Source: Spirochaetota bacterium
Lineage (GTDB): Bacteria; Spirochaetota; UBA4802; UBA5368
Assembly: GCA_018263175.1 (NCBI GenBank)
Contig: JADFDB010000005.1
Coordinates: 1 to 43,907 of the forward strand
Reading direction: 5' to 3'
DNA: 43,907 nt
Shown one piece after another: positions 31,704-40,461 of this stretch (position 1 is its first letter; each line of letters opens with the position of its first letter). The notes under the pieces were generated by a model. That model was not told the origin of the DNA. It worked only from the letters and a program-made list of their open reading frames with translations, and did no database searches. Both the position numbers and the translations under genes were made by a program.

Positions 31704-32513
31704 TTATTTCGTCACCTTCACCATCAGCGTGACCCCGAAGTGCCTGAGAAAAGGCAGCGGGCCGTTCGCCTTCGCCTCGATCCGGTCGGAGAAGCGGCGC
31801 AGCGCACGATGAAAGCGCCGCGGAACGATGATGTAGTGCCAGGTCCATTTGGTGTGGATGTTCCACGGCGGCCGGAACTCGTGCGCTGTTATCTCGCATT
31901 CGGAAAAGAGGCCGCGGCAGAGCTTTCTTATTTCACCGAGGCGGTAAAAGCGCATGCGGATGGGGTCGCGGTAGCGGAACAGGTGTATGCTTATGAACTG
32001 GAGAAAGGCGAAGAGCAGGTTTTCCGGCGCGAATCGGGACGGTACGCGGATGTAGGCAACGCCGCCGGACTTCAGAATGCGGTGCACCTCCCCGAGAACG
32101 AGCTTCCCGTTGGCCTTCGAGAGGTGCTGTAAAACCAGGAGCGAATAAGCCGCGTCGAAGCTGTCGTCCCTGAAGGGGAGCCGGGTGCCGTCGCCGCGGA
32201 GGAGCGCCGGCGTGTGGCCGTGCTTCTCGAGGTGCTTCCTGCTCTGTTCGAGCATGGCCTGCGAGATGTCGAGGCCGATGCCGTGCGCCCCCCGGTCGAG
32301 CACGGGCTTCAGCACCCGGCTCCACCCGCAGCCTAGGTCGAGGGTGAGTGCGCCTTTTTGAACGGGAAAGGGCGGCGGCGCGTCGAGGAGGTTTCCGTAA
32401 TAGTCGGTGAGGATGGCCTCCACCCCGAGCGTGATAAAGGGGGCATCCTTCATCGCCCCCTCGTCCCAGACGCCGACGTATGCCCGGTAAAAATCGCTGT
32501 CTTTTACAATCAC
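31704..32513 (-). CDS. Class I SAM-dependent methyltransferase
   Basis: 'GALTLDLGCGWSRVLKPVLDRGAHGIGLDISQAMLEQSRKHLE...YSLLVLQHL...VHRILKSGGVAYIRVP'. GTG start at 32513 overlaps the upstream stop (GTGA). Confidence 0.9.
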   Translation of the reverse strand: MIVKDSDFYRAYVGVWDEGAMKDAPFITLGVEAILTDYYGNLLDAPPPFPVQKGALTLDLGCGWSRVLKPVLDRGAHGIGLDISQAMLEQSRKHLEKHGHTPALLRGDGTRLPFRDDSFDAAYSLLVLQHLSKANGKLVLGEVHRILKSGGVAYIRVPSRFAPENLLFAFLQFISIHLFRYRDPIRMRFYRLGEIRKLCRGLFSECEITAHEFRPPWNIHTKWTWHYIIVPRRFHRALRRFSDRIEAKANGPLPFLRHFGVTLMVKVTK

Positions 32514-33985
32514 TGTTTGCGTCCCCTTTCGGCGTATTTTCGCTTTTCTTCGTCGGCGAGCCGCTGCATCGCCGCGTAAACCGGGTCGTACGAATTTGAC
32601 GCGTTCCAGAACAGAAAGCCGCGCGCGCCCGCGTCGACGGCCCCGCGTATCTGCTCCAGTATGTAGTCGTCGTTGTACGCCTTTGTTCTCCAGCGGAATG
32701 CCTGGAGCCACGGGCGCACCGCGGTCTGCGGTGCCAGCGCCTTCACGCGGAGGCAGCCCCTGTTTATGAAATAGTACGGCTCGTCGCCGGGATTGGCGTA
32801 GCCGTCGAAATGATCGTTGAAATGGGACGGGTACAGCATCGGCGAGATCACCTCGCAGTGCTTCGCCATCCGCTCAATCCGCTGGCCGGTCCGGCGGATG
32901 TCGATCTCCTTTCCCCATGCCACCACGCCGAAGATGTCCACCGAGAGATTGGCGTGCCGCGCACTGAGCTCGGCGTGCGCGCGCTCTAAAAAGGCGGTGA
33001 TCGCCGCTTCTTTCGGCATGGTGCCGAAGTGGTACGCGTAGACGGCGTCGCCGTGGTCGCCGGCGGTGGGGAAGCGGATGTAATCGAACTGGATTTCGTC
33101 GACGCCCTTTTCGGCGAGCTCTATGGCCAGCGCGATATTGTAGTCCTGGACGTGCTTGTTGGTGGGGTCGCACCATAGTTCGGCCCCGGCGCTCCACGGC
33201 CCCCCGCTTTTCTTCGAATGGATGGCGTATTCCGGCCTCTTGCGGTACAGCGCGTGGTCGTGGAACACCGCGATCCGGGCGATGGCGTACACCCCTTTGT
33301 CTTTGAGGTGGCGGATAAGCTTGTCGATGTCGTCGATGCACCGCTTCTCGTGCGTATTGAACTCGACCGCGGCGGGAACATGGCTGCGGTAGTTGACGAT
33401 GCCCGTGATGTCCTTCGCGTCGAAGACCACGGTGTTGATGCCCGCGGCCAGAAAGCGCTCGAGCGACTGAAGCGTCTTTTCGCTCGCTATGGCCCCGCCG
33501 GTATAATAAAGCCCCCGGCTCTCGATGATCGGCGGCTTCGCCGTCCTTATAAAGGCAGGAACGCGGGGTGATATACTGTACGGGATGTAAACGATCGTGC
33601 CTCTGGTCACGGAATCGGCACGGAGCGCGTTATATTCCTTTATCGTCCGTTCGAGCTGATAACGTCTGAAAAAATGCGTGTAGCGGAGCGCGGCATCGGC
33701 GACCTCTCTGAGACGCATATCGCGCGGGGCCTGGAAGAGCAGGGTGCGGCCGCAATGGATGAAGCCGGCGGGAAGGTTCCGGTAAACCGTCGTATGGTCG
33801 CGCCGTTCAACCGTGCCGATGATCGTGAAGCTGCTCTTCGGAAGGACCGACCGGTAAAGGCGGAGAGCTGACCCCTGGATGCCGTCGGCGATGAGCGCAA
33901 TGGCGCCCGCGTGTATAAGGACGAGCCACTGGGTCATGAGCGCGCAGAGCAGCAGGGTGAGGATCTGGCGGTTTCGTTTGTTCAT
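32510..33985 (-). CDS. Putative glycoside hydrolase (DUF4015-type)
   Basis: 'KPPIIESRGLYYTGGAIASEKTLQSLERFLAAGINTVVFDAKDITGIVNYRS', 'ELAEKGVDEIQFDYIRFPTAGDHGD', 'SPMLYPSHF'. Confidence 0.85.
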   Translation of the reverse strand: MNKRNRQILTLLLCALMTQWLVLIHAGAIALIADGIQGSALRLYRSVLPKSSFTIIGTVERRDHTTVYRNLPAGFIHCGRTLLFQAPRDMRLREVADAALRYTHFFRRYQLERTIKEYNALRADSVTRGTIVYIPYSISPRVPAFIRTAKPPIIESRGLYYTGGAIASEKTLQSLERFLAAGINTVVFDAKDITGIVNYRSHVPAAVEFNTHEKRCIDDIDKLIRHLKDKGVYAIARIAVFHDHALYRKRPEYAIHSKKSGGPWSAGAELWCDPTNKHVQDYNIALAIELAEKGVDEIQFDYIRFPTAGDHGDAVYAYHFGTMPKEAAITAFLERAHAELSARHANLSVDIFGVVAWGKEIDIRRTGQRIERMAKHCEVISPMLYPSHFNDHFDGYANPGDEPYYFINRGCLRVKALAPQTAVRPWLQAFRWRTKAYNDDYILEQIRGAVDAGARGFLFWNASNSYDPVYAAMQRLADEEKRKYAERGRKQ

Positions 33986-34162: not shown

Positions 34163-34957
34163 ATGCTTAAAATTGAAAGCCTACTGAGAACACCGACGCG
34201 AAAAATCGTCTCCTTCCTGGAGGGTGTGAGAAATTTTTACCGGTTTGTGAAGTCGATCGTGGTGTCGTTTCGCTCCATCAAGTACCTTCGGTTCCGCTCG
34301 ATCTATTCCATCGTCATCAACCAGACCCGCTTCACCGGGATCGACGCGCTTCCGATCATCGTTTCGATCGCGCTCCTCCTCGGCGCGACCACGATCATTC
34401 AGGCCACCAAGGCATTCCCGAAGTTCGGGATTGAGGGCTTCATCGGCAACCTCCTCGTCATCATCATCGCGAGGGAGCTCGGGCCGCTCGCCACCGCCAT
34501 GATCGTCGTGAGCCGCTCGGGCTCGGCGATCGCCGCGGAGATCGCCACCCAGAAGCAGAACAGGGAGATCCTCTCGCTCGAGCTCATGGGGATCGACACC
34601 AAGCTCTATATCGTTTTTCCGCGCATCCTGGCCTCGATCCTGGCGATCTTCACGCTCATCGTCATCTTCGACATAACGGCCTTTTTCGGGGGCTATCTCA
34701 TTTCGCTCGGCACGGTCTACATCCCGGCGGGCGTATTCGTCCAGACCATGCTCGACGCATTCAGTTTCAGCGACCTCAGCATCACGATTCTGAAAAGCGT
34801 TATGTACGGCATTCTCATCCCCCTCATCTGCTGCTATTACGGCTTTATGCCGGAATCGGACTTCCAGATCCCGATATTCGTCTCGCGCGCCGTGGTGCGC
34901 ACGCTCGTGATACTCTTCGTAATCAACGCCTTCATCTCGGCGCTGTTCTATTTTTAG
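34163..34957 (+). CDS. MlaE-family ABC transporter permease
   Basis: 'RFTGIDALPIIVSIALLLGATTIIQA', 'IARELGPLATAMIVVSRSGSAIAAEIATQKQNREILSLELMGID'. Confidence 0.95.
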   Translation: MLKIESLLRTPTRKIVSFLEGVRNFYRFVKSIVVSFRSIKYLRFRSIYSIVINQTRFTGIDALPIIVSIALLLGATTIIQATKAFPKFGIEGFIGNLLVIIIARELGPLATAMIVVSRSGSAIAAEIATQKQNREILSLELMGIDTKLYIVFPRILASILAIFTLIVIFDITAFFGGYLISLGTVYIPAGVFVQTMLDAFSFSDLSITILKSVMYGILIPLICCYYGFMPESDFQIPIFVSRAVVRTLVILFVINAFISALFYF

Positions 34958-34966
34958 GTGGGAACG

Positions 34967-35728
34967 ATGAATGGGGAGGAACTTCTCAGGGTCGAATCGG
35001 TCTGTTTCACCGACGCAGGCGGCGCGGTCTGCCGCGACGTCTCGTTTTCACTGGCGAGGGGGGAGAACCTGATCATATTCGGTCCCGAGGGCTCGGGTGC
35101 CGAGGTGGTGTGCCCGCTCATCGCCGGGACGGTGATCTCGTTCGACGGAGAGATATTTTTCAAGGGGCGCTCGGTCGAGAGCTTCGACTATTTCGAGCGC
35201 CACAACTACCGCAAGGAGCTCGGGTATCTGCAGAGGGACTATGGTCTCATCAACAACATGTCGGTCGAGGAGAACATTGCGCTTCCGCTGCGCTATCATT
35301 CGAGGCTTTCGTCCTGGGAGATCACTTCGCTCGTGAACAGGCTCCTCGGCGAGCTCGAACTCGAGCACTGCCGCGGCCTCCGGCCGTTTTCGCTGTCGGG
35401 CTCGGAAACACAGCGGACCGCGTACTGCCGCGCGATCGCGCTCGACCCGGATCTTCTGCTCGTCGAGCACGCGCTGGAAGGGCAGTGTCTGCTCAATTCC
35501 CGGCTGTTTCTGGAAGCGCTGGGCCGATGGTGCGCGCGCGACGACCGCTCGGTCATCATCGTCACCTACGAACCGGAGCGGTTCGTCGATTTTTCAGATC
35601 GCTTTCTTATGCTGTATGACGGTAATATCGTGTTTTCGGGTTCGCGCGATGAGTTCCTCGCGCGGCAGAACGACTATCTTGACCAGTACATGCGCTCGTC
35701 ACTCGACGGGCCCATGAAGGTGCGGTAA
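34967..35728 (+). CDS. MlaF-like ABC ATP-binding subunit homologue with degenerate nucleotide-binding motifs
   Basis: ABC-type layout retained ('GYLQRDYGLINNMSVEENIALPLRYH', 'CRAIALDPDLLLVEH') but Walker A is GPEGSGAE. Start may be GTG 34958. Confidence 0.88.
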   Translation: MNGEELLRVESVCFTDAGGAVCRDVSFSLARGENLIIFGPEGSGAEVVCPLIAGTVISFDGEIFFKGRSVESFDYFERHNYRKELGYLQRDYGLINNMSVEENIALPLRYHSRLSSWEITSLVNRLLGELELEHCRGLRPFSLSGSETQRTAYCRAIALDPDLLLVEHALEGQCLLNSRLFLEALGRWCARDDRSVIIVTYEPERFVDFSDRFLMLYDGNIVFSGSRDEFLARQNDYLDQYMRSSLDGPMKVR

Positions 35729-35741
35729 ACGGAGGCGGGCC

Positions 35742-36416
35742 ATGAAGCTTGAAAAAAACGAACTGCGCGTGGGTATATTCGTATTGATACCGGTTGTCAT
35801 ACTGCTGCTCTTCGTGGTGCTCAAGCTCGGATACTCCTTCGCGAGCTCGACCATCGATGTGTTCCTCAAGACCGACAGCATCACCTCGATCAAGGAGGGA
35901 ACGCTCGTGAAGATCAAGGGTTACACCGTGGGCCGGGTCATCGACATCAAGCCGGTCTACAAGCCGGCGCTGCACTTCCTGGCGGTCATGCGCATTCGCC
36001 GCGATATCGAGCTCTACGAGGACTGCTCGGCGGTGATACAGAACCAGAACATCATCGGCGACCCGGTCATCGACATCCGCAACCCCGAGAAGAAGGGGGA
36101 GCTTTTGCGGTCCGGCTCGGTCATAGAGGGGATCGAGTACGTCAATCTGGAGGCGATTTTACAAGACGTCCACGCGCTGCTCGCGACCCTTCAGGGGACG
36201 GTCGGCGTTATTCGCGATATATCGATCGACAGCCGGGGAAATCTGCGCGCGCTGCTGACCAACCTTTCCGGCAGCATGGCCACCGTCAACGACCTGCTTA
36301 TGAATTCGCAGAAGGACATCCTCGAAATCCTCACCTCCTTCAGGCAGACCGCGAAGACCATGAACGAGATCTCCGAGGAGCTTAAAAAACATCCCGTCAA
36401 GTTTCTATTCAAGTGA
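35742..36416 (+). CDS. MCE-domain (MlaD-like) protein
   Basis: 'ELRVGIFVLIPVVILLLFVVLKLGYSF' TM anchor, 'GTLVKIKGYTVGRVIDI', 'DPVIDIRNPEKKGELLRSGSVIEGI'. Confidence 0.93.
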   Translation: MKLEKNELRVGIFVLIPVVILLLFVVLKLGYSFASSTIDVFLKTDSITSIKEGTLVKIKGYTVGRVIDIKPVYKPALHFLAVMRIRRDIELYEDCSAVIQNQNIIGDPVIDIRNPEKKGELLRSGSVIEGIEYVNLEAILQDVHALLATLQGTVGVIRDISIDSRGNLRALLTNLSGSMATVNDLLMNSQKDILEILTSFRQTAKTMNEISEELKKHPVKFLFK

Positions 36417-36419
36417 CGC

Positions 36420-37289
36420 GTGCCGCTTTTCTCCGTCATAATCCCGGTATACAACCGCCCCGTCCCGCTCCGTCGGGCGATCGAATCCGTGCTCGCGCAG
36501 AATTTCAGCGACTACGAGCTCGTCGTGGTGGACGACGGCTCGACCGATGATACCGCGGCGATCGCGCGGTCATTTCCTGCCGTTCGGTACGTGCATCAGC
36601 ATAACCGCGGCGTGAGCGCGGCGCGCAACCGCGGGGCCGCGGAATCGAGTGCCCCGTACCTCGCCTTTTTAGACTCGGACGACGAATGGCTGCCCGAAAA
36701 ACTCGGCGTGCAGCATGAATTCATCGGGCGCAATCCATCCATACTCATTCACCAGACCGACGAGATCTGGATACGCCGCGGCCGCAGGGTAAACCCGAAG
36801 AACAGGCATCGCAAACCCTGGGGCGATATCTTCATCCCCTCGCTTGACCTCTGCCTGGTGAGTCCGTCGGCCGTGGTGATAAGGCGCTCACTTTTCGAGC
36901 GATCGGGTGGATTCGACGAACGCCTGAAGGTGTGCGAGGACTATGACCTGTGGCTGCGAATCGCGTTCGACGAGCCGGTGGGGCTCATCGACCGGAAACT
37001 AGTGGTGAAATACGGCGGGCACGACGACCAGCTCTCGCGGAGGCACTGGGGAATGGACCGGTTCCGGGTGTACGCCATCATGAAGCTCCTTCGCGCGCGG
37101 GCGGGAGAGATGGGGGAGGAGCGTCTGAGGGCGACGCGGGAGGCCGCCGGGAGCAGGTGCGCCCTGCTCGCACAGGGGGCGAAAAAGCGCGGTAACGGCG
37201 CCCTCCTCGACGTCCTGGAATCGGTGATTCGATCTATCGATGATGGAGACTATAGCAGTAGAGCGTTTGAGAGCCTCGCAGAAGCATGA
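36420..37289 (+). CDS. Family 2 glycosyltransferase
   Basis: GTG start; 'FSVIIPVYNRPVPLRRAIESVLAQNFSDYELVVVDDGSTDDT', 'NRGVSAARNRGAAESSAPYLAFLDSDDEW'. Confidence 0.95.
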   Translation: MPLFSVIIPVYNRPVPLRRAIESVLAQNFSDYELVVVDDGSTDDTAAIARSFPAVRYVHQHNRGVSAARNRGAAESSAPYLAFLDSDDEWLPEKLGVQHEFIGRNPSILIHQTDEIWIRRGRRVNPKNRHRKPWGDIFIPSLDLCLVSPSAVVIRRSLFERSGGFDERLKVCEDYDLWLRIAFDEPVGLIDRKLVVKYGGHDDQLSRRHWGMDRFRVYAIMKLLRARAGEMGEERLRATREAAGSRCALLAQGAKKRGNGALLDVLESVIRSIDDGDYSSRAFESLAEA

Positions 37290-38316
37290 CGGGCGCCTCG
37301 ATCGAGGCCTGCAGGTACGATTCCATGGGGAAGTTTCGGGCGAAGAGTACGGTGCCGTCGGGCAGGAAGGCGAGCGCCTGGGAGCCGCCTTCGGATCTTG
37401 TATATCCGGCGACGTAGATGCAGCCGTCGCGGTCGAGCGAGGCCATCCCGGTGCGGGCGGCCGGGACCTTGATCGACGCCGCTGGCTTCGCCTTTCGATT
37501 GACGACGAGAATCCTGTTGTGGTCGAGAATCGCCGCGGTGCCGTCGTCCCCGACGGTAAGCGCCGTCCGCGCGACGTGCACGCGCGAGAGCGGCGAGGCG
37601 GCGGCGCTTCCGTCCGCGGTCGCGATGATCGCGATGTAATCCCCCTTCTCGTTCCCGTAATGGAGCGCGACATACGCTCCCGACGGCGACACCGCCATGC
37701 TCTTGACGAGGGTGCCGCCGCCCGTTCCGGCCTTCAGGAGGCGCCTTCCCGCAGCGTCCATTACCGCATAGCTTCCGTCGAGGAAGCCCAGGGCCGCGAT
37801 GTCGGATCCCTTCGAAAAGGCGATGACCGTAAGGAAGCGTCCGGCAACCGGTTCTCCCGCCGGATTGCCGTGAAAGTCGAGCGCACGCACCCGGCTCTGG
37901 TCGCTGTTGACGAGGAGTACGAGCTTTCCGTTGTACGACACATGAGGGTATTCGCGCGAGCCGGTCTTCCAGAAGGGGCTGCCGTCGGCCGCGAAGAATT
38001 CCACCGTGGTGCCGAGTTTCTGATAGGCTGCGTAATACCTGCCGTTCCCGCTTGCGGAGAAGAGCGTTTCGCCGAAGGCCCGCTTCGCGATGAGCCTTCC
38101 GTCGGCGGCCAGGAGCGAAAGCGTGTCGCCCGAAACGACCGGCGGGATTGAGCGAGTAGACAGCGCCGCGTTGGGCGAGCGCTCAATCGATTCCGGTGCC
38201 GCGACCGGCCCCTGCCATTCGGGATACAGTTCCGTCGCCGGTTCCGCCTGCCAGACGGGGGCGAGGCCCAGAACGGCGCCCGCGATGAGTCCGAGTACAA
38301 GATAGCGCATGGTCAC
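37234..38316 (-). CDS. Secreted beta-propeller-like protein of unknown function
   Basis: Signal-like N-terminus and repeated propeller-type strands ('MAVSPSGAYVALHYGNEKGDYIAII', 'GMASLDRDGCIYVAGY'); 4-bp overlap with the upstream sigma factor gene. Confidence 0.78.
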   Translation of the reverse strand: MTMRYLVLGLIAGAVLGLAPVWQAEPATELYPEWQGPVAAPESIERSPNAALSTRSIPPVVSGDTLSLLAADGRLIAKRAFGETLFSASGNGRYYAAYQKLGTTVEFFAADGSPFWKTGSREYPHVSYNGKLVLLVNSDQSRVRALDFHGNPAGEPVAGRFLTVIAFSKGSDIAALGFLDGSYAVMDAAGRRLLKAGTGGGTLVKSMAVSPSGAYVALHYGNEKGDYIAIIATADGSAAASPLSRVHVARTALTVGDDGTAAILDHNRILVVNRKAKPAASIKVPAARTGMASLDRDGCIYVAGYTRSEGGSQALAFLPDGTVLFARNFPMESYLQASIEAPVMLLRGSQTLYCYSLHHR

Positions 38317-39469: not shown

Positions 39470-40282
39470 TTATTTGGGGCCCCAGAGCCCGGCAAGCCTT
39501 TCGGGAAGCTCCTGGATCGAGGCGGCATAGCCCGGCATGTCGATGGCCGTATCGAGCCCGTGTTGCTCGAAGAGGAGCCGCGTTTCCTCCCTGGATTTCA
39601 CGACCGAGCCGGAGATTCTGTCTTCGGCCCGTGAGGGCCGGTCCCCGTCCATCGTGAAGAGCAGGTGGCGCGACGGCTCTCGTTTCTGCCGCGCTTTAAC
39701 GGGGGAGAAGAGCACCATCTCGACCTTCGAGAGGTCTTTCCCGCTGTAGGAGAGGGAAATCTCCATGCGGAACACCGTGCCGTTCGTCAGTATTTTAACG
39801 GGAACTCCGTCGTTGTACGAGAACCTCGTGATGACGAGCGGCGTCCTGTTCCTGACGATGCTGTATGAGCTTTTAAAGGATGTTTCGGTGCGGACGAGCT
39901 CGCCGCCGCTTCCGTAGAAGAACGACTCGACCCAGACGTCGTCGACCGGCTTTCCCTCGCGCGTCTCCCGTGCCCGGTGTGCCTGAATGCGGAGCCTTCC
40001 CGCCTGATCGTATGAGAAGGTGCGCGCGATGAGGGTCTCGCCACCCGGCGACGCGAGCTTCGAGGCCTTCGAGAGCCGGCCGGCGGTGTCGTATTCGAGC
40101 ACTATCCTCCCCGTTACAGCGCCTTTTTCGATGAAATGAATCTCGCGGAGACGGCCGTCGTCGCCCGTAATCCGGACGGTTTTATACGAAGCGCACGCGG
40201 AAAGCGCAAACAACAGGACCGGTATGATGACGGCCGTCCGGGAGTTCGGAAACGGGAGGGATCTCCTGTCAGTCGTGCTCAT
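39470..40282 (-). CDS. Lipoprotein of unknown function
   Basis: Lipobox 'LFALSACASY' near the N-terminus; coherent 270-aa frame. Confidence 0.75.
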   Translation of the reverse strand: MSTTDRRSLPFPNSRTAVIIPVLLFALSACASYKTVRITGDDGRLREIHFIEKGAVTGRIVLEYDTAGRLSKASKLASPGGETLIARTFSYDQAGRLRIQAHRARETREGKPVDDVWVESFFYGSGGELVRTETSFKSSYSIVRNRTPLVITRFSYNDGVPVKILTNGTVFRMEISLSYSGKDLSKVEMVLFSPVKARQKREPSRHLLFTMDGDRPSRAEDRISGSVVKSREETRLLFEQHGLDTAIDMPGYAASIQELPERLAGLWGPK

Positions 40283-40461
40283 GATGCGTTCGCGGTTTCC
40301 TCTGTGCCGTAACGGCATTCGGATTCCGCCTCGTGGCCTCCATTGCCGGGCTTTAAGCTACCAAAAAAAGAAAGTGCCGAAAATGCCGATTTTGTCAATG
40401 ACAATTTAGGCGCGTCGGTCCAGCATGGAGACGGGGACGGGATGAAAAGGAGCTTTCGTTT

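Follow-up and report, generated by a model that had tools for sequence, protein, structure and literature searches.

The E*F*D* locus

Within the window (the whole stretch of 43,907 nucleotides that was analysed), positions 34163-36416 carry three almost abutting genes on the plus strand, which encode a permease of the MlaE family (E*), an MlaF-like ABC subunit (F*) and an MlaD protein (D*). The genes and the features discussed below are as follows:

34163..34957, plus strand: E*, MlaE-family permease and putative dedicated partner of the dead ATPase (Pfam MlaE PF02405, 1.2e-54)
34538..34594, plus strand: coupling helix of E*, residues 126-144, EIATQKQNREILSLELMGI (alignment against 50 other MlaE)
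34958..35728, plus strand: F*, MlaF-like ABC subunit without any intact catalytic motif (Pfam ABC_tran, 1.4e-16)
35081..35104, plus strand: degenerate Walker A of F*, GPEGSGAE (Lys to A48, Ser/Thr to E49)
35234..35236, plus strand: Q-loop Gln of F* replaced by Arg93 (alignment)
35243..35299, plus strand: conserved F* block GLINNMSVEENIALPLRYH beside the Q-loop (mean entropy 0.80 bits versus 1.95 over the protein)
35393..35413, plus strand: degenerate ABC signature of F*, LSGSETQ (SGGM to SGSE; the Gly-Gly-Met column reads x-Ser-Glu and is conserved)
35453..35470, plus strand: degenerate Walker B and catalytic pair of F*, LLLVEH versus hhhhDE (Asp to E170, Glu to H171)
35486..35488, plus strand: D-loop Asp of F* replaced by Cys177 (alignment)
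35567..35569, plus strand: H-switch His of F* replaced by Tyr204 (alignment)
35742..36416, plus strand: D*, MlaD, a single MCE-domain protein of 224 aa (Pfam MlaD PF02470, 3.6e-11)

The annotated start of F* is a GTG at 34958; an alternative ATG at 34967, which is preceded by ggtggg and agrees with the homologues, is more likely to be the true start. E* possesses the MlaE domain, D* a single MCE domain, and F* the ABC fold and homology to the family, with a score of 98 bits against the NCBIfam MlaF model that falls far under the cut-off of 441. In most homologous loci D* adjoins F*. AlphaFold modelling of F* from a ten-sequence alignment yielded a monomer (pLDDT 85.3, pTM 0.84), which is uninformative on a dimer or complex, and whose best match among solved folds was E. 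coli MlaF (6xbd_I, TM 0.87); by this model the MlaF-type ABC fold is kept. Loss of the C-terminal handshake of E. coli MlaF was considered as a further mark of F* and rejected, as an intact MlaF of the same genome also ends before the handshake.

Catalytic motifs of F*

The motifs were compared with an intact MlaF of the same genome (L002) as reference, and residues were counted in an alignment of 56 F* sequences, 43 from the order of the window (own-order F*) and 13 from another spirochaete class (second-class F*), next to 26 MlaFED-type MlaF. The Walker A Lys, found in 26/26 MlaFED-type MlaF, occurred in 0/43 own-order F*, in which the Q-loop Gln was likewise never found (n = 43); the P-loop glycines 42 and 47 are still present. 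The signature column showed Ser for Gly in 52 and Glu for Met in 50 of the 56 F*, while among own-order sequences the Walker B Asp was replaced by Glu in 41/43 and the catalytic Glu by His in 39/43. Cys occupied the D-loop position in 43/56 F* (30/43 own-order, 13/13 second-class) and Tyr that of the H-switch in 49/56 (36/43 and 13/13, respectively). The signature Ser-Glu, the D-loop Cys and the H-switch Tyr are thus replacement residues conserved in both classes, in contrast to the Glu-His pair, which is not conserved in second-class F*.

F* consequently possesses neither the Walker A Lys, the signature SGG, the Walker B Asp, the catalytic Glu nor the H-switch His. These losses had been described in a previous sequence-only reading of the locus, and all proved real when aligned with homologues; the same reading took the Q-loop to be intact, whereas its Gln column holds R93, and the D-loop Asp is lost as well. 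The recurrence of the same changes in 42 further own-order F* ruled out chance or sequencing error as their cause. The best conserved of the F* stretches compared was the block beside the Q-loop, which would be expected to form the region facing the permease.

F* is retained under purifying selection

A scan of genome contigs, which detects close relatives only, revealed nine close homologues of F*, all in spirochaete MAGs, 52-88% identical and with the same losses; outside these nine clear loci, only distant ABC matches were seen. F* was present in 55 of 393 Spirochaetota genomes, namely in 42 out of 46 that represented the order of the window and in 13 of another class belonging to two families (f22 and f38), and no stop codon was found within the F* frames across these 55 genomes. 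Within the genus, dN/dS of F* was 0.10-0.18 (Nei-Gojobori), figures that are rough at dS values of 0.3-1.2, and for the pair G000-G050 it was 0.108 for F* and 0.109 for an intact MlaF. A ratio of about 0.1 shows that F* is under purifying selection, and both its catalytic death and its long retention are well supported.

The sequence-only reading had described an undisrupted frame and had favoured repurposing over decay, proposing that homologues and selection be examined and that close relatives with intact motifs would speak against it. Its view was upheld on these points: the frame is intact in 55 genomes, the degenerate motifs are kept in homologues across two spirochaete classes at a dN/dS of about 0.1, and intact motifs occur nowhere within the F* clade as a full set. 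That F* is merely a redundant gene in ordinary decay, as the joint loss of many motifs might suggest, is hardly credible, and this explanation was discarded as contradicted by the intact frames, the selection values and the shared replacement residues.

E* is a distinct permease confined to genomes with F*

The permease gene beside F* had been regarded as normal on first reading. Alignment revealed instead that its coupling helix, the position of which and its contact with MlaF are taken from published work (PMC7790496), is rewritten where EIGTMxVxxEIDAL would be expected, and that a GAEGVG-type segment is missing. The consensus of E* reads EIATQKxxxEIxSLExxGI, whereas other MlaE, including the sister group, conform roughly to EIGxMxVxxExxAL; in place of the usual EIGxMxVxxEIDAL, E* has EIATQKQNREILSL. 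E* sequences scored 336-442 bits and every other MlaE at most 223, and E* formed one clade (SH-aLRT 100) in a tree for which the program warned that some long branches meet.

E* was found in exactly the 55 of 393 genomes with F*, and never without F* among these 393. Second-class genomes carry E* as an orphan gene away from F*-D*, so that co-occurrence there is not due to linkage; similarly, G020 carries E*-D* on one contig and F* on another. Four own-order genomes are devoid of both E* and F*, which, the genes being linked, could reflect one event each, and neither gene was seen in G115, a near-complete second-class genome. Taken from sequence comparison, these data suggest that E* is a dedicated permease that changed together with F*.

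Stepwise loss of the ATP site

In a tree calculated with the motif columns removed, F* formed one clade (SH-aLRT 99) that splits into own-order (98) and second-class (98) branches, with a sister group from other spirochaete families. Second-class F* have lost the signature, the D-loop Asp and the H-switch His, and nearly all of them the catalytic Glu; the Walker A Lys is retained in 12/13, and ATP binding may persist in them. The sister MlaE-MlaF loci (L164-L183), which branch closest to E* and F* in the trees, differ from F* in that they range from intact to partly eroded: L164-L167 are catalytically intact, with the Walker A Lys, Asp-Glu and His kept, while in L168, L170 and L174 the catalytic Glu has become Asn and the His is lost. 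Since relatives are graded in this manner and the second class keeps the Walker A Lys, a stepwise loss is indicated, in which the signature, D-loop and H-switch were probably lost first and the final change was that of the Walker A Lys on the own-order stem, an order read off the present tree and not from reconstructed ancestors.

In many spirochaete families, the MlaF homologues that accompany MlaE of the sister clade (L164-L183) are partly eroded in different ways, the catalytic Glu being changed to Asn or Ser and the His to Asn, Asp, Gln or Ser, which suggests repeated loss of ATPase function among these loci.

Other Mla genes of the host genome

The host genome (G000, 73% complete) contains three MlaE and three MlaD. 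The search for a second mlaF that had been proposed with the sequence-only reading was successful, as two further intact MlaF are present in the same genome: one belongs to an intact E-F-D operon at C22, and the other lies at C10. The remaining genes are dispersed, with an MlaE beside dnaB at C110 and an MlaD at C37, and we infer that the C110 MlaE, the C10 MlaF and the C37 MlaD make up a second set. The C110 gene (L001/L019) is located directly downstream of dnaB without an adjacent ATPase or MlaD; in second-class genomes, an MlaE similar to it adjoins an intact MlaF. A further match of 236 bits at C199 may represent a different ABC ATPase, for example LptB. The periplasmic carrier MlaC (PF05494) was found neither in the host genome, at its 73% completeness, nor in the nine own-order relatives searched, and was present in two second-class genomes.

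Proposed function of the E*F*D* transporter

The motif losses strongly support F* as a non-hydrolysing, structural subunit. In ABC proteins each ATP site forms between two subunits, one contributing its Walker A and its partner the signature. Because own-order F* has neither a Walker A nor a signature, both an F* dimer and a dimer of F* with an intact MlaF would be without a complete site. The Mla function of E. coli is lost with MlaF K47A or E170Q, whereas binding to MlaB survives Walker A or B mutations of MlaF (PMC7367683). According to the review PMC10212509, MlaD has been reported to pass lipid on to MlaC without ATP, a step that is blocked by hydrolysis. From the dead ATP site, the loss of function in the E. 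coli mutants and the ATP-independent transfer together, we infer that the conduit is passive and that outward flow is more likely. As a guide to this, the E. coli transfer assay is imperfect, since none of the ten own-order genomes searched yielded an MlaC.

We thus somewhat favour the view that E*, F* and D* form a dedicated transporter with a pseudo-ATPase, through which lipid would be moved downhill. By analogy with MlaFEDB, the complex would be E*2-F*2-D*6, in which an F* dimer without ATP cycling would cap and stabilize the E* dimer from the cytoplasmic side and keep it open to the MCE ring of D*. Phospholipid could then flow down its gradient between the inner membrane and acceptors in the periplasm. 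Net flow would most likely be outward, because the ATP-independent step of E. coli Mla is the transfer out via MlaD that ATP hydrolysis prevents; the retrograde, ATP-driven work would fall to the two intact MlaE/F/D sets that the genome also encodes. It is conceivable, if somewhat short of probable, that a whole lineage of transporters with ABC architecture has become ATP-independent in this way, permease and dead ATPase having co-evolved into a passive conduit, with living intermediates displaying the order of motif loss.

Other functions of F* have to be weighed against this. Mycobacterial Mce systems share an ATPase that is encoded apart from them, and F* could similarly be a regulator or placeholder, with E* at times powered by an intact MlaF encoded elsewhere. 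The host genome would offer two such proteins, that of C22 with its own E and D and the unlinked one of C10; however, the two further MlaE and two further MlaD can pair with both of them, the coupling helix of E* is unlike those of both intact sets, and E* never occurs without F* in the 393 genomes. A mixed dimer of F* and intact MlaF was set aside for want of a complete site, and on the whole we consider a borrowed ATPase unlikely. It is also rather improbable that F* has become a ligand-gated switch, binding ATP or some other ligand but not hydrolysing it, for which the conserved Glu-His, Cys and Tyr would form a new site. In favour of such a switch, the P-loop glycines are kept, the replacements are conserved and 12 of the 13 second-class F* have the Walker A Lys, but the residues with which known ABC proteins bind phosphate and magnesium (Lys, Ser/Thr, Gln and the Walker B Asp) are all missing from own-order F*, and the Glu-His pair is not conserved in the second class.

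As F* and E* are unlinked in G020 and in the second class, F* could also be taken to have abandoned the transporter for a role elsewhere in the cell, its nearness to E* and D* being historical. This we regard as very unlikely, given that F* and E* co-occur perfectly despite being unlinked and that the best conserved block of F* lies beside the Q-loop, on the expected permease side.

Comparison with known systems

The locus resembles MlaFEDB of E. coli and its relatives (PMC7790496, PMC7367683) in its gene set, its MlaE permease, the MlaF fold (TM 0.87 to 6xbd_I) and a single-MCE MlaD, but differs in that F* is without any catalytic motif, the E* coupling helix is rewritten and MlaC was not found in the own-order genomes searched. 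The three-part MlaEFD of Veillonella parvula (PMC10665443) likewise consists of E, F and D only, without MlaC; its mlaF, unlike F*, is reported to be very similar to the mlaF of model diderms, and with 419 aa its MlaD is a long, trans-envelope protein compared with the 224 aa of D*. According to PMC12436622, PqiAB and LetAB also provide an MCE lipid path without ATPase activity of their own, although PqiA and LetA are described there as having no ATPase domain at all, whereas E* is an ABC permease still carrying a dead ABC subunit. In TmrAB, ABCB2/B3 (TAP) and Pdr5 (PMC7756269), catalytic motifs are replaced and the replacements kept by selection, as in F*; these transporters retain one working site, while neither possible site of the F* transporter is complete and, by the logic of the sequences, no pairing of F* gives the one complete site of a heterodimeric ABC protein.

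There is precedent, therefore, both for MCE systems that lack an ATPase (Pqi, Let) and for ABC transporters in which one site is dead. The papers searched, on the subjects of MlaF pseudo-ATPases, degenerate NBDs of bacteria and MCE systems of spirochaetes, held no description of a transporter such as this, and an MlaFED-type transporter in which the sole ABC subunit is wholly degenerate and yet conserved is likely to be new. As ABC transporters are defined by their use of ATP, a conserved one with no possible ATP site raises the question of what else an ABC subunit does. It also bears on the dispute over the direction of Mla-type lipid flow and the energy need of MCE channels, since nature here apparently offers the complex in an ATP-free form, open to comparison with the intact sets that share its cell. 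By means of the graded relatives, the path by which a pseudo-ATPase arises can be tested.

Genes flanking the locus

Just upstream of E*, on the opposite strand, a putative glycosyl hydrolase (DUF4015, PF13200) is encoded at 32510-33985 (minus strand); a homologue lies close to F* in about 34 own-order loci and is thus a conserved neighbour. A family 2 glycosyltransferase gene (36420-37289, plus strand) begins 3 bases past D*, with which it is possibly co-transcribed, and homologues lie close to F* in about 15 own-order loci. The 360-residue protein encoded at 37234-38316 (minus strand) gave no Pfam match and has homologues close to F* in about 16 own-order loci. Further downstream, 39470-40318 (minus strand) encodes a putative lipoprotein with a weak match to the RHS repeat.
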